This document shows, piece by piece, positions 15,236-59,302 of a stretch of DNA of 64,000 bases. Origin of the DNA: Gemmatimonadota bacterium (GTDB taxonomy: Bacteria; Gemmatimonadota; Gemmatimonadetes; Gemmatimonadales; Gemmatimonadaceae); contig JAQBQB010000022.1 in assembly GCA_028287235.1 (NCBI GenBank), positions 186,001 through 250,000 of the forward strand, given 5' to 3'. Position 1 is the first letter of the stretch, and every line of letters begins with the position of its first letter. The translations under genes were made by a program, and so were the position numbers. The notes beneath the pieces were generated by a model. The model ran no database searches. It was not told the DNA's origin and saw only the letters and a program-made list of their open reading frames with translations.

Positions 15236-16528
15236 TTATTGCCGACACGACAGCGCATCGTTGTTGCTGAACACTCGGCCCGCCTCCGCCGAGCGGATGA
15301 ATGCGGCGATTGGGCAGAGCGACTGCGTTTGGCCGCCGCCGCCGCGGCGCATGGAGTACGGGCGAATGAAGACACTCGCCGAATCCACCGGCAGGGTCGC
15401 GACGTTGGCGTAGAACGCTGCAGCTTTGCCGTCGTTGAACAGATACTGCTCGACGTTCGACACATAGAACGCGCTGACGACGCCGTTGTGCCCCGTCAGG
15501 TATGCGCCAATGGCACGAATGGCCCTGGGTCCCGCGAAGTCGCCAGATACGGGCACGATGAGATTTTTCTCATGCAACGACTTGACGTATCTGTAATTCT
15601 CTTCCGACGACAGGAAGCTCCGGGGCTGACCGCTCGCGTCGTCGGAGTAGGCGGTGAGCTCGGCGAAGTCGCCGCCACGGCCGCTCGGGCCGCCGCGCGT
15701 CGAGATGGCGGGGCCGTAATAATAAAACGCGTCGAACACCGCCTTGAGCTTCGCCGATTCGTCGGCCGTGAAGGTGAAGGCGTGCGTCTTCGTCAGCCGG
15801 TCGACGACGCGAACGTAGTCGCGCGCGGATATGGCCGAGTCGGTCTTCACGTTTCGGAACGCGGTCCAGACGTCCTTGATCGGCGTTGCGCTGTCGATGC
15901 CGGCGGGGCGCGGCTTGGCGAAGAGGATCGAGATGAAGTCCGCGCGATCCTTCGCCATCTCGAACATCGCCTTGAACATCAAGTGCTGCATCACCGCCTG
16001 CCGGCGAATGTCCACGACGAAGGCCAGTTTCGGCCGGATGGCGGCGATGTAGGTGAAGTTCTGTTCCGGCCCAACGCCCATGTACACGCCACCGCTCACG
16101 TGCGTGTCGCGCAGCATGCCGTAGAGCCGGCCGACTTCCATCTCGTTCGAGGTGAAGTTGTCCTCGATCTGGAAATAGCCGCCCGGCTCCGAGATCGCGG
16201 TCTCCAACGCCCAGTACTCTGCATCGCCAAGCCGTTCCGGTAGCGCGTTGATCGGCGCGAGTGCCTGAACGACTTGTGGCGGCGGCGCCTGAACCGGCGC
16301 GCTCGTGACGGCGACCGGAGCGGCGCAGCCGGCCAAGAGCATTGTCATCCTGAGGGAGTATCTCGGCATAGTCATCCCGAGGGAGTGTCTCGGCATTGTC
16401 ATCCTGAGGGAGCGTAGCGGCATTGTCATCCTGAGGGAGCGTAGCGACCGAAGGATCGCCGTCCTCGCCGAGAGATCCTTCCCCGTCGCTTCGCTTCGGG
16501 TCAGGATGACAAACGCCGCGAGTTTCAT
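15236..16528 (-). CDS. Lipoprotein of unknown function, signal peptide split by a repeat insertion
   Basis: The ATG at 16526-16528 overlaps the TGA of the upstream BNR gene (ATGA) and has AAGGAG eight bases upstream, so this is the genuine start. The protein begins MKLAAF, then has about 56 residues encoded by a palindromic repeat array (RSLRMTMPL-type nonapeptides), then MLLAGCAAP, a lipobox. The rest (about 365 residues) is a conserved secreted domain with NFTSNEMEVGRLYG and MGVGPEQNFTYIAAIRPKLA, a pattern I associate with methyltransferase-like lipoproteins; the function is not assigned. As it stands the hydrophobic core is separated from the lipobox, so lipidation and export are doubtful. 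The stop is TAA at 15236-15238. Confidence 0.8.
   Translation of the reverse strand: MKLAAFVILTRSEATGKDLSARTAILRSLRSLRMTMPLRSLRMTMPRHSLGMTMPRYSLRMTMLLAGCAAPVAVTSAPVQAPPPQVVQALAPINALPERLGDAEYWALETAISEPGGYFQIEDNFTSNEMEVGRLYGMLRDTHVSGGVYMGVGPEQNFTYIAAIRPKLAFVVDIRRQAVMQHLMFKAMFEMAKDRADFISILFAKPRPAGIDSATPIKDVWTAFRNVKTDSAISARDYVRVVDRLTKTHAFTFTADESAKLKAVFDAFYYYGPAISTRGGPSGRGGDFAELTAYSDDASGQPRSFLSSEENYRYVKSLHEKNLIVPVSGDFAGPRAIRAIGAYLTGHNGVVSAFYVSNVEQYLFNDGKAAAFYANVATLPVDSASVFIRPYSMRRGGGGQTQSLCPIAAFIRSAEAGRVFSNNDALSCRQ
16344..16510. repeat. Palindromic GTCATCCTGAG repeat array inside a coding sequence
   Basis: Four copies of a GTCATCCTGAGGGAG-type sequence begin at 16344, 16371, 16398 and 16425, exactly 27 bases apart. 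The fourth copy is the left arm of a longer hairpin closed by TCAGGATGAC at 16501-16510. Spacing in multiples of three keeps the host frame open, giving repeated nonapeptides. The same family occurs at 46473, 55559 and 59229. Confidence 0.9.
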
Positions 16529-19500
16529 TTTTTCAGCTCCTTGTCGACCGCCGCCAACTCGGCCTTCGCTTCGGTGACTGCCAGCCGCTGCGTGTTCGTT
16601 GGCGCAGCGAAACTTCCCTGTTGCGCGCCGGCTCCATTGAAGCCGCGAGCCACGCCGCCGAGTTTTCCGCGAACGCCGTCGCGTCCTGTCAAACGTCGTT
16701 CGAGCGCGGCGAGACGCGTCGCCTCTTCGCCGGCCGCGGCGGTGCGGCGCGTGCGGAGATCCGCGGCACGCTGCTCCACCTGCACCTGAAGTGCCTGCAC
16801 GTCGAGCAGGAACGTTTCGCGCGCCTTCTGCTGGGCAGTGGTGATGTTGAGCGCTGGATCACCGCGCACCTCGAAGGTGCGCGACGTCGTGTCGCCGTCG
16901 ACGTCGAGCGTGACCTTGAACGTGCCAGGGGAGACGTACGGACCGCGCAGCCCGATGTCGTGCGCCGGAATCGGCAGTTGCACCGGCGCGTCGACTCGGC
17001 CGCGGCCGGCACCGCTACGTCCACCGGCGGGAGCCCCTGCTTCCGGCGGCGGTCCGCCGCCTTCTTCACCGCCGCCACCACCGCCGGCGCCCGCCGTTGC
17101 CGGCGGCGGAACGTGGCGCAGATCCCACGTGGTACGGTGAATCACTCCCGGCGACGTGGAGCCGGCGATGTCGCGAATCACCTTGCCGTCCATTCCGCGA
17201 ACGATGAGCCGAACCTTCTGCGCCGCCTTCGCGAGAGAATAGGTGAATACCGCGCCGTCGGCGGGATTGTCGGCGGCGTACATGCCCTGCGCCGTGTTCG
17301 AGATGTCCTCCCAGTACCACATCAACGTGGCGCGCTTCGGCGCGAAGAGATACGTCAGCTTCGCGGCGATCGCGTCGGTCCACTCGGCGATCGGAGACGC
17401 GTCGTCGAGAATCCAGATGCTGCGGCCGTGCGTGGCGAGCACGAGGTCTTTCGTGCGCGGTTGCACGACGATGTCGTCGTAGCGCGTGGTCGGAAGGTTG
17501 GACGCGAGCCGCGACCATTGCGCGCCGCTGTCACGGCTCACGTACAGCGAGCGCTCGGTTCCGGCGAACAGCACGTTCGCCTTGCCCGGATATTCCTGAA
17601 TGCTGCGCACTGATGCGTCGGGCTGAAGCCCGCTGGTGATCGTTTTCCACGTCTTGCCGAAGTCGGTGGTGCGCGCGATGTACGGCGCGAAGTCGCCGAT
17701 GCGGTGCGCGTCGAACGACACGTAGGCCGTTCCGCGCGACGCGCTAGAAGCAACGATACGGCTGACGTACGTGCCGTTCGCCACGCCGGGAACGCCGGCG
17801 CTCACCTCGCGCCACGTTGTGCCGCCGTCGGTCGAGACCTGAATGTTTCCGTCGTCCGCTCCCACCCACAGCACCTTGGCGTCGAGCGGAGACTCGGCGA
17901 TCGTCGTGAGCTCGCTGTAGCCGGATTCACCGTCGTTCTTCGCGATCTTGATGTCCTTGTCGAGCACGCCCATGAGCCGGAGCGTGTCGCGGTTGACCGA
18001 ACGCGTCAGGTCTTTCGTGCGCGTCCACGTGTTGCCGAAATCTTTCGAGATGAAGAGACGGTTCGCGCCGATGTAGACCGTGCCGGCGGTGTGACGCGAG
18101 GCGATGAGCGGCGCGTCCCAATCCCAACGATATGCCGAGTCGCCCTTGGGCGGCTGCGGCTTGATGTCGATGTGGTCGCCCGTCTCGGGATCGAAGCGTT
18201 GGACGTTGCCGCCGTCGGAGCTCGAGTAGACGTAGCGATAGCCCGCCTTGTCGACCGCCTGCCCCGTGCCGTCGCTGAAGCCGATCTGCTTCCAATCCTG
18301 GTTGAGAATGCCGAGCCAGTGGCGCGTGGCGCTCGGGCCCATCCAGGAGTGCGTGTCCTGCAGGCCGCCGTAGACCCAGTACGGATCGCGATCGTCGACG
18401 GCGATCTTGTAGAACTGGCCGATGGGGATGTTGTTCATGCGCGTGTACGTGAGCCCCAAGTCCCAGCTCTCGTGCATGCCGCCGTCGCCGCCCACGAGCG
18501 TGTGCCGCGAGTTCGCGGGATCGATCCACATCGTGTGGTGGTCGGTCTTGAGTCCCACGTCGTACGCCGGCGAGTTCGGCATGTTCTCGAACGTTGCGCC
18601 GCCGTCCTCGCTCTTGAAGATCGTGACGCCGAGCTCCCACACGCGCTTGTCGTTGGTGGGGTCGATGTAGGGCGCGCTGAAGTACATGGGGCGCGGGTTG
18701 GAGCGGCTCATCTTCTTCCACGTCGCGCCGGCGTCTTCGGTGCGATAGGTGCCCGACTCCGTTGCGTGCTCGACGAGCGCGATGAGCACGTTCGGGTTCG
18801 ACGCGGAGATCGAGAAGGCGATGCGGCCCTTGTCGCCGGCGGGAATTCCGTTCTCCATCTTCTTCCACGTCGCGCCGCCGTCGGTCGTCTTGTACATCGC
18901 GCTGCCCGGACCGCCGCCGTTGTAGCCGAACGTGCTGCGCAAGCGCTGGTAAGTCGCGGCGTAGAGCACGTTGGGGTCGCGCGGATCCATCGCAAGATCC
19001 GTGGCGCCGGTGAGCGTGTCGACGTAGAGGATCTTGTTCCAGGTCCGTCCCCCGTCGGTCGTCTTGAAGACGCCGCGCTCGGGGTTGGGCTTCCAGAGAT
19101 TTCCCGCCGCGGCGACGTACGCGATGTTGGAGTTAGTGGGATGGAGCACGACACGTCCGATGGCGCGGGTGTCGGACAGCCCCAAGGACTGCCAGTGTGC
19201 GCCACCGTCGTTCGATCGATACACGCCGGTACCCCACGACGAGCTCTGTCGGTTGTTCTGCTCGCCGGTGCCAGCCCAGATGATCTTTGGATCGCCGGGA
19301 AAGATTGCGAGGTCGCCGAAGGTGTTGTCGGGCTGGCCTTCGAACACCGGCGTCCAGAAGGTGCCGTGGTTGGTGGTCTTCCAGATGCCGCCACTCGCTG
19401 CCGCAACGTACATGGTCGACGGATCCTTGGGGTCGACCTCGATGTCGTGGATGCGGCCGCCTGTGGCGGCCGGACCGATCGAGCGAAAGTGCAGGGAGTC

Positions 19501-19578
19501 GAACGGCGACTGTGCCTGCGCGAGCGCAGGAAGAAACGCGGCGGCAGCGAAGAAGGTCGCGCGGCGAGCAGTGATCAC
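16525..19578 (-). CDS. Large secreted VPS10/BNR-type beta-propeller protein
   Basis: The protein has about 1017 residues. GTG 19576-19578 has GGAG nine bases upstream and gives a signal peptide (ITARRATFFAAAAFLPALAQA). The body is a sortilin/BNR-like propeller with many sialidase-type Asp boxes: SNDGGAHW, TTDGGRTW, STDGGTTW, SEDGGATF and SRDSGAQW. A Gly/Pro-rich spacer (GGGGGGEEGGG) near residue 850 precedes a C-terminal beta domain and a helical tail. Such proteins are often annotated as glycosyl hydrolases, but I see no catalytic residues, so glycan or protein binding is as likely. It is translationally coupled to the downstream lipoprotein gene. A paralogue is encoded at 50904-54152. Confidence 0.88.
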   Translation of the reverse strand: MITARRATFFAAAAFLPALAQAQSPFDSLHFRSIGPAATGGRIHDIEVDPKDPSTMYVAAASGGIWKTTNHGTFWTPVFEGQPDNTFGDLAIFPGDPKIIWAGTGEQNNRQSSSWGTGVYRSNDGGAHWQSLGLSDTRAIGRVVLHPTNSNIAYVAAAGNLWKPNPERGVFKTTDGGRTWNKILYVDTLTGATDLAMDPRDPNVLYAATYQRLRSTFGYNGGGPGSAMYKTTDGGATWKKMENGIPAGDKGRIAFSISASNPNVLIALVEHATESGTYRTEDAGATWKKMSRSNPRPMYFSAPYIDPTNDKRVWELGVTIFKSEDGGATFENMPNSPAYDVGLKTDHHTMWIDPANSRHTLVGGDGGMHESWDLGLTYTRMNNIPIGQFYKIAVDDRDPYWVYGGLQDTHSWMGPSATRHWLGILNQDWKQIGFSDGTGQAVDKAGYRYVYSSSDGGNVQRFDPETGDHIDIKPQPPKGDSAYRWDWDAPLIASRHTAGTVYIGANRLFISKDFGNTWTRTKDLTRSVNRDTLRLMGVLDKDIKIAKNDGESGYSELTTIAESPLDAKVLWVGADDGNIQVSTDGGTTWREVSAGVPGVANGTYVSRIVASSASRGTAYVSFDAHRIGDFAPYIARTTDFGKTWKTITSGLQPDASVRSIQEYPGKANVLFAGTERSLYVSRDSGAQWSRLASNLPTTRYDDIVVQPRTKDLVLATHGRSIWILDDASPIAEWTDAIAAKLTYLFAPKRATLMWYWEDISNTAQGMYAADNPADGAVFTYSLAKAAQKVRLIVRGMDGKVIRDIAGSTSPGVIHRTTWDLRHVPPPATAGAGGGGGGEEGGGPPPEAGAPAGGRSGAGRGRVDAPVQLPIPAHDIGLRGPYVSPGTFKVTLDVDGDTTSRTFEVRGDPALNITTAQQKARETFLLDVQALQVQVEQRAADLRTRRTAAAGEEATRLAALERRLTGRDGVRGKLGGVARGFNGAGAQQGSFAAPTNTQRLAVTEAKAELAAVDKELKK

Positions 19579-19661
19579 GGAGAGCGGCTCCAATTGTGGA
19601 AGACGATGGACGCTGGAATGTGCAAGCGCGGTGCGGCGATGGCCAGCGCACGTGACGGCGT

Positions 19662-20315
19662 TTGGACGGCGCTCGTCTATTCGGCGTGTCGTCTCCGTCA
19701 CCGCTGTCGCCATCGTCTGGTCGGTCGCACCAGCTCTCGCTCGCGAAGCTCGAGCGCGACACCTACGTGCGAGTCTACTTCGTTCGCGACGGAGTCGCCG
19801 GCGCCGTGGTCGGCGCGCTCAAGGGGCTGACACGGACCGACGCGCGCATCGCGGATGCGGCCGGGGAGATCGTGGAGATTCCGTTCGCGTCGATGACGCA
19901 GGTGAGCGTGCCCGATCTCGACGCGCGATCGGAGAGCTGGGCGAGCGCAATGCCCGATGTCGTGTCGATGCTCGCCGCGCTGGTATTGATCATGGCGCTC
20001 GCCACGCTGGTGTACGGTACGCGGCGACTGTCGTTCGGGGATCTCGCGATTCGCGTGATCGGGATTGGAGCGCCGATCGGCTATCTCATTGGCGGACGGT
20101 TCGCGAAGCGCGTCAACGACGAACGGCGGGGACTGGTCGTCGAGCTGTCGGTTGCCGCGGCAGTGGGGGCGGCGTGGCTTGGGATGTATGCCGTGCGGAA
20201 GGCGCCGGCGCTGCATGCGACCGTGCCGATGCTCGCGACACTCATAGGGGTGACGCTCGTGGGAGCGATCGTTGCAGCCGCGGTGTCGTCGGCAAGAAAA
20301 ACGACGGCCGGATAG
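19662..20315 (+). CDS. Small membrane protein, probably frameshifted after its signal peptide
   Basis: The open frame from TTG 19662 encodes 217 residues: a small beta domain (YVRVYFVRDGVAGAVVGALK to EIVEIPFASMTQVSV), then four hydrophobic segments beginning VVSMLAALVLIMALATLVYG. The N-terminus in this frame is not a signal sequence. In the neighbouring frame, GTG 19652 encodes an excellent signal peptide (RRSSIRRVVSVTAVAIVWSV, then APALA) that runs out of frame at a tandem TCGCTCGC (19737-19744). Removing one TCGC joins the signal peptide to AKLERDTYV. The gene is therefore either freshly mutated or carries a sequence error. Function unknown; the domain resembles SH3-like beta domains common after signal peptides in this group (impression only). 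Confidence 0.6.
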   Translation: MDGARLFGVSSPSPLSPSSGRSHQLSLAKLERDTYVRVYFVRDGVAGAVVGALKGLTRTDARIADAAGEIVEIPFASMTQVSVPDLDARSESWASAMPDVVSMLAALVLIMALATLVYGTRRLSFGDLAIRVIGIGAPIGYLIGGRFAKRVNDERRGLVVELSVAAAVGAAWLGMYAVRKAPALHATVPMLATLIGVTLVGAIVAAAVSSARKTTAG

Positions 20316-59228: not shown

Positions 59229-59302
59229 GTCATCCTGAGCGCAGCGAAGGATCGCTTCGCGAGGATGGAGATCCTTCGGTCGCTACGCTCCCTCAGGATG
59301 AC
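59229..59302. repeat. Complete copy of the GTCATCCTGAG palindromic repeat
   Basis: GTCATCCTGAGCGCAGCGAA and GGATC form the left arm. GATCC, TTCGGTCGCTACGCTCCC and TCAGGATGAC form the right arm, ending at 59302. The 74-bp hairpin lies between two serine hydrolase genes. It is close to the element at 16425-16510 in sequence. Confidence 0.9.

Follow-up and report, generated by a model that had tools for sequence, protein, structure and literature searches.

Introduction

How can a lipoprotein gene hold 167 bases of palindromic repeat inside its signal peptide and still be read in one frame, and what becomes of the leader? The question is raised by a gene at positions 15236-16528 (minus strand) of the window, by which is meant the whole stretch of 64,000 nucleotides analysed; it belongs to contig C15 of a Gemmatimonadota genome of 5.73 Mb (G000). 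The best-known examples of palindromic elements read in frame come from Rickettsia, which is intracellular and has a reduced genome. The reading developed here, to which we give a probability of roughly 0.8, is that a palindromic element inserted in the lipoprotein signal peptide and was multiplied in place by duplication spanning the junction, with the frame kept and export probably weaker or altered.

The Host Gene and Its Interrupted Leader

The gene, recognised from the ORF list, its orthologues and a Pfam match (E 3e-33), encodes 430 residues with a DUF7790 domain (PF25046), and the nearest named match to its product is from a Gemmatimonadetes bacterium. Its ATG (16526-16528, minus strand), from which MKLAAF would be read, overlaps as ATGA the TGA of an upstream Sortilin/BNR-repeat ORF (16525-19713, minus strand, from the ORF list and Pfam, with a putative start) and is preceded by an AAGGAG Shine-Dalgarno site (16537-16542, minus strand); the overlap and the site, with which the preliminary description had fixed the start, are both present. 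The frame is open from this ATG through all the repeat bases, that is, MKLAAF is followed by the array and then by MLLAGC, of which the lipobox LAGC (16325-16336, minus strand) aligns with LAAC and LTAC of the orthologues. Past the lipobox, neither an ATG nor a GTG start was seen in the sequence and the ORFs before the conserved mature domain begins, so a start 3' of the array would cost the protein its lipobox.

The closest orthologues come from two species of the same genus (G002 and G005, 68% and 66% identical). Neither carries the insert, and in both the lipoprotein signal peptide is unbroken (MNVARLIVSIALLPLAAC; MNAARRIVSIALPFLTLTAC), with a charged n-region, a hydrophobic core and a lipobox ending in Cys near the N-terminus. 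In relatives from other genera the N-terminal leader is likewise hydrophobic and free of the repeat. An Arg/Met-rich leader was looked for and not found among the same-genus orthologues. Since the orthologues and the relatives from other genera are all without the repeat, the Arg/Met-rich leader arose by insertion in this lineage and interrupts the signal peptide, as had been proposed; at 66-68% identity the orthologues do not show the precise empty site or the ancestral form of the leader. G002 also has a second DUF7790 copy (L022, on its contig C196), in which the coding sequence is broken up into several frames and Trp stands where the lipobox Cys is expected.

Structure of the Array

The array covers 16344-16510 and is in frame on the minus strand. 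It is made up of a complete hairpin element of 86 bases, GTCATCC...GGATGAC (16425-16510), with ten base pairs at its ends, and three extra tandem units of 27 bases (16344-16424, plus strand), each composed of 22 bases of element tip and five bases of host flank (GCATT or GCATA); GCATT also stands outside the first unit. Units start at 16344, 16371, 16398 and 16425, and the closing arm is at 16501-16510. The 86-base hairpin has a DNA folding energy of -27.4 kcal/mol (z -5.6), which no shuffle equalled, and the window holds ten matches to the 11-mer tip GTCATCCTGAG with at most one mismatch against 0.84 expected, a number likewise reached by no shuffle.

Four GTCATCC units at 27-base spacing with a closing arm, in frame inside the host gene, had been described at this place and are there, at the length of 167 bases, and taking out 168 bases does join MKLAAF to MLLAGC. 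The frame arithmetic of that description had to be refined: 167 is not a multiple of three, so the insertion must have involved either one additional base or the removal of some host bases. The remnant of the host leader amounts to 34 bases (18 for MKLAAF and 16 from the array to the Cys codon) compared with 51 in the G002 orthologue, and 167 inserted bases less 17 missing ones give a net 150, a multiple of three. Probably, then, 17 host bases were lost at insertion, which fits both frame and length, arithmetic being no proof. By eye no target-site duplication is evident at this locus, where the tandem copies of the flank obscure the view.

A Dispersed Palindromic Element

The repeat is a dispersed, non-autonomous, MITE-like palindromic element, with terminal inverted repeats, a small size and no room for a transposase gene. 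Its exact 11-mer tip occurs 356 times in G000, compared with twice for the reversed word; the counts are 163 in G004, 108 in G002 and 1-4 in the three congeners G001, G003 and G005, which are thus nearly free of it, and other repeat-rich genomes occur elsewhere in the order. The window itself offers for comparison a single intergenic copy of 74 nucleotides (59229-59302). On each strand one reading frame of the tip is closed (TCA TCC TGA) and the other two are open. Rfam gave no match for the element. The load within one genus differs more than 80-fold (G000 against G001, G003 and G005), with no matching Y1 transposase.

A small palindrome of high copy number, mostly intergenic and patchy between species, could be a member of a REP family mobilised by RAYT, but the Y1 (RAYT-type) transposase PF01797 had no match in G000, while five control genomes gave matches, nor in the repeat-rich G004, G014, G035, G139 and G146, and the arrays read end in GTCATCC/GGATGAC, not in a GTAG or CGTC tag. 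With PF01797 absent, mobilisation by RAYT was rejected, and membership of such a family is regarded as very improbable.

Tandem Units and Their Periods

Arrays were read from 46 further stretches and the window, 77 in all, of which one (L079:6754-6828) was rejected as a chance motif match inside coding sequence, leaving about 76, most of them intergenic. Their periods are mostly 14-44 bases and vary among loci and even between the two sides of one array, and some loci have eight or more units. The end of a unit resembles the local flank: the mean shared suffix is 5.08 bases, against 2.03 (sd 0.17) after reassigning the flanks among loci, and with unit-like flanks left out it is 3.98 against 1.96, the maximum of 1000 shuffles being 2.57. 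Because each tandem unit consists of element tip and host flank, periods differ from locus to locus. Such flank-like unit ends are most simply read as the product of in-place tandem duplication over the junction. The preliminary description had regarded the 27-base period as keeping the frame, with gain or loss of a unit never shifting it; this stands for the unit at the window locus, where 27 is the sum of 22 tip and five flank bases, and not for the family, since at most other arrays the period would shift the frame.

Repeat Arrays inside Other Genes

Insertion in frame in a conserved gene, missing from orthologues or relatives, is seen in three cases, namely the DUF7790 gene, a GT2 glycosyltransferase and a PAP2 phosphatase. 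The GT2 gene (L070:88-1401; G000 C9:173787-175097) has about 80 repeat-coded residues inside its catalytic domain, between NLGFAGGNN and YVCLVNNDTVV, by which the Pfam match is broken into two stretches; in relatives without the insert (G008, G012 and G015) the matches break off at query residue 125-127 and resume at 210-214, the two parts being 0-18 bases apart. The PAP2 gene (L069:5545-6591) has about 40 such residues after an N-terminal hydrophobic segment. Arrays are also found at the ends of several genes. Repeat-coded C-terminal tails occur in a CtaA-type protein (L088:3966-4384), where the tail is long and in frame, and in an oxidoreductase-like gene (L073). An array forms or abuts the N-terminus of an alpha/beta hydrolase (L068), and so do arrays at L072 in a carboxypeptidase-regulatory/Plug-domain protein and in a protein weakly like DUF4249. 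As judged from such sequences, the repeat can add peptide to proteins and leave the gene unbroken. Several arrays flanked by coding sequence on both sides turned out to sit between two adjacent genes, and a coding test applied to flanks of 120 bases lacked the power to sort arrays. A search with the repeat peptide in nine relatives gave only two matches, neither a clear gene insertion.

Every one of the nine tandem series in open genes has periods divisible by three, whereas elsewhere this holds for 23 of 71 series (Fisher p 1.2e-4). The p value is optimistic because embedded arrays were picked by their open frames and other periods tend to close a frame. The same bias speaks for the view that the period of 27 is a matter of chance, a frame-neutral length that was not selected and that about a third of arrays have anyway; the 23 of 71 other series and the setting of the period by the amount of flank copied agree with it. 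However, in GT2 and PAP2, whose arrays are interior by relatives or domain matches, four of four series are multiples of three, for which chance gives about 0.01, and we hold the chance origin to be a serious possibility, though less likely than not.

Translation, Export and the Course of Events

The array contains eight in-frame ATGs, and the second ATG of each unit has AGGA or GGGA five bases upstream. The array could accordingly be 5' untranslated DNA, with translation starting at an ATG in a repeat unit (for example MPRYSLRMTMLLAGC, with an SD-like GGGA five bases upstream); the protein would then have a short, possibly working lipoprotein signal, and the repeat would give start sites, not peptide. 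Many REPs at the N-termini of ORFs may in fact be extragenic because translation begins downstream of them (PMC3733652), and arrays lie directly before the signal-peptide cores of two neighbouring L072 genes (L072:4064-4443 and L072:6813-6906). There the repeat peptide KRSFALLRMT could serve as an n-region, and the N-terminal arrays of the L068 and L072 genes may be untranslated. At the window locus, however, the strong AAGGAG-ATG with its ATGA overlap lies upstream of a frame open through the whole array, and GT2 and PAP2 carry the repeat inside the protein, so a start within the array is considered unlikely here. In one predicted RNA structure of positions 16340-16560 the Shine-Dalgarno site pairs with CUCC of the array; if formed, such pairing might damp translation.

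Read from the upstream ATG, the host protein would be longer by about 56 residues with the remainder of the gene intact. It keeps the lipobox LAGC, with Cys as residue 68, and its hydrophobic core is split: the 11 residues before Cys have a mean Kyte-Doolittle value of 0.85, compared with 2.5 and 1.7 in the orthologues, and the most hydrophobic 7-mer of the leader, LAAFVIL, is at the extreme N-terminus. With the core in two short halves export is likely to be weaker or altered, as estimated from hydrophobicity alone. A more severe outcome would be that export is abolished and the gene is becoming a pseudogene, tolerated thanks to the other DUF7790 copies; the split core and three further DUF7790 paralogues in G000 would permit this, but 368 codons after the array are still open with a strong coding signal, and the units differ from one another by several bases without a stop, so that the array is not brand new. 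Abolished export with decay of the gene is considered unlikely.

Under the insertion reading, the order of events would be as follows. A dispersed non-autonomous element would have landed in the hydrophobic core of the signal peptide, probably at the cost of about 17 host bases, and tandem duplication in place, spanning the junction, would then have copied the tip with five host bases as the 27-base unit. As two of the element's three frames on each strand are open and the host frame was kept, the extra residues would be translated into a leader with two short hydrophobic halves. Extended to the family, this would mean that the element multiplies where it sits, its tip being copied along with neighbouring host sequence, that every insertion thereby gets a period of its own, and that within genes only frame-neutral periods persist. 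Export leaders and enzyme loops would in this way receive peptide repeats of variable length that bring start codons with them; we offer this extension as speculation, more doubtful than probable.

Comparison with Known Systems

In-frame palindromic insertions are already known as a kind, from the Rickettsia elements, other MITEs and grouped intragenic REPs. The Rickettsia palindromic elements (RPE) of Ogata, Claverie and co-workers are dispersed hairpins of 105-146 bp inserted in frame in protein genes, N-termini included (PMC2229807, PMC3733652), and one host enzyme, Gmk, was shown to be translated and active (PMC2229807). The present element is like them in its palindromic hairpin, its dispersal and its in-frame position in protein genes, N-termini among them; it differs in its host, a GC-rich genome of another phylum, and in the tandem multiplication of its tip with host flank, and the likeness drawn here is one of behaviour. 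The ORF-carrying MITEs ERIC/RU-1, YPAL/RU-2 and the Correia 107-bp element share with it terminal inverted repeats, open frames and in-frame fusions, and in the portions consulted of that account tandem units capturing flank were not found described (Delihas 2007, PMC2229807). In YPO1552 a predicted signal peptide is made up in part of YPAL (same source), but there YPAL helps to build the signal peptide of a possible new gene, whereas here a signal peptide conserved in orthologues is split. The REPs with GTAG/CGTC tags are mostly intergenic with some intragenic, and in some species grouped repeats code for 43 to 82 residues (Di Nocera 2013, PMC3733652); position and grouping are similar here, but the end tag is lacking and no RAYT-type transposase was found in the genome.

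In the open-access literature no relevant account of such repeats in Gemmatimonadota was found, nor a description of this family in the phylum, of a lipoprotein signal split as here, or of tandem units that take up flank. Compared with Rickettsia, the setting is a Gemmatimonadota genome of 5.73 Mb that contains hundreds of repeat tips and gave no match to a RAYT-type transposase; the host flank inside the tandem units is a record of array growth and the insertions in a signal peptide and an enzyme domain make the tolerance of inserts directly testable.
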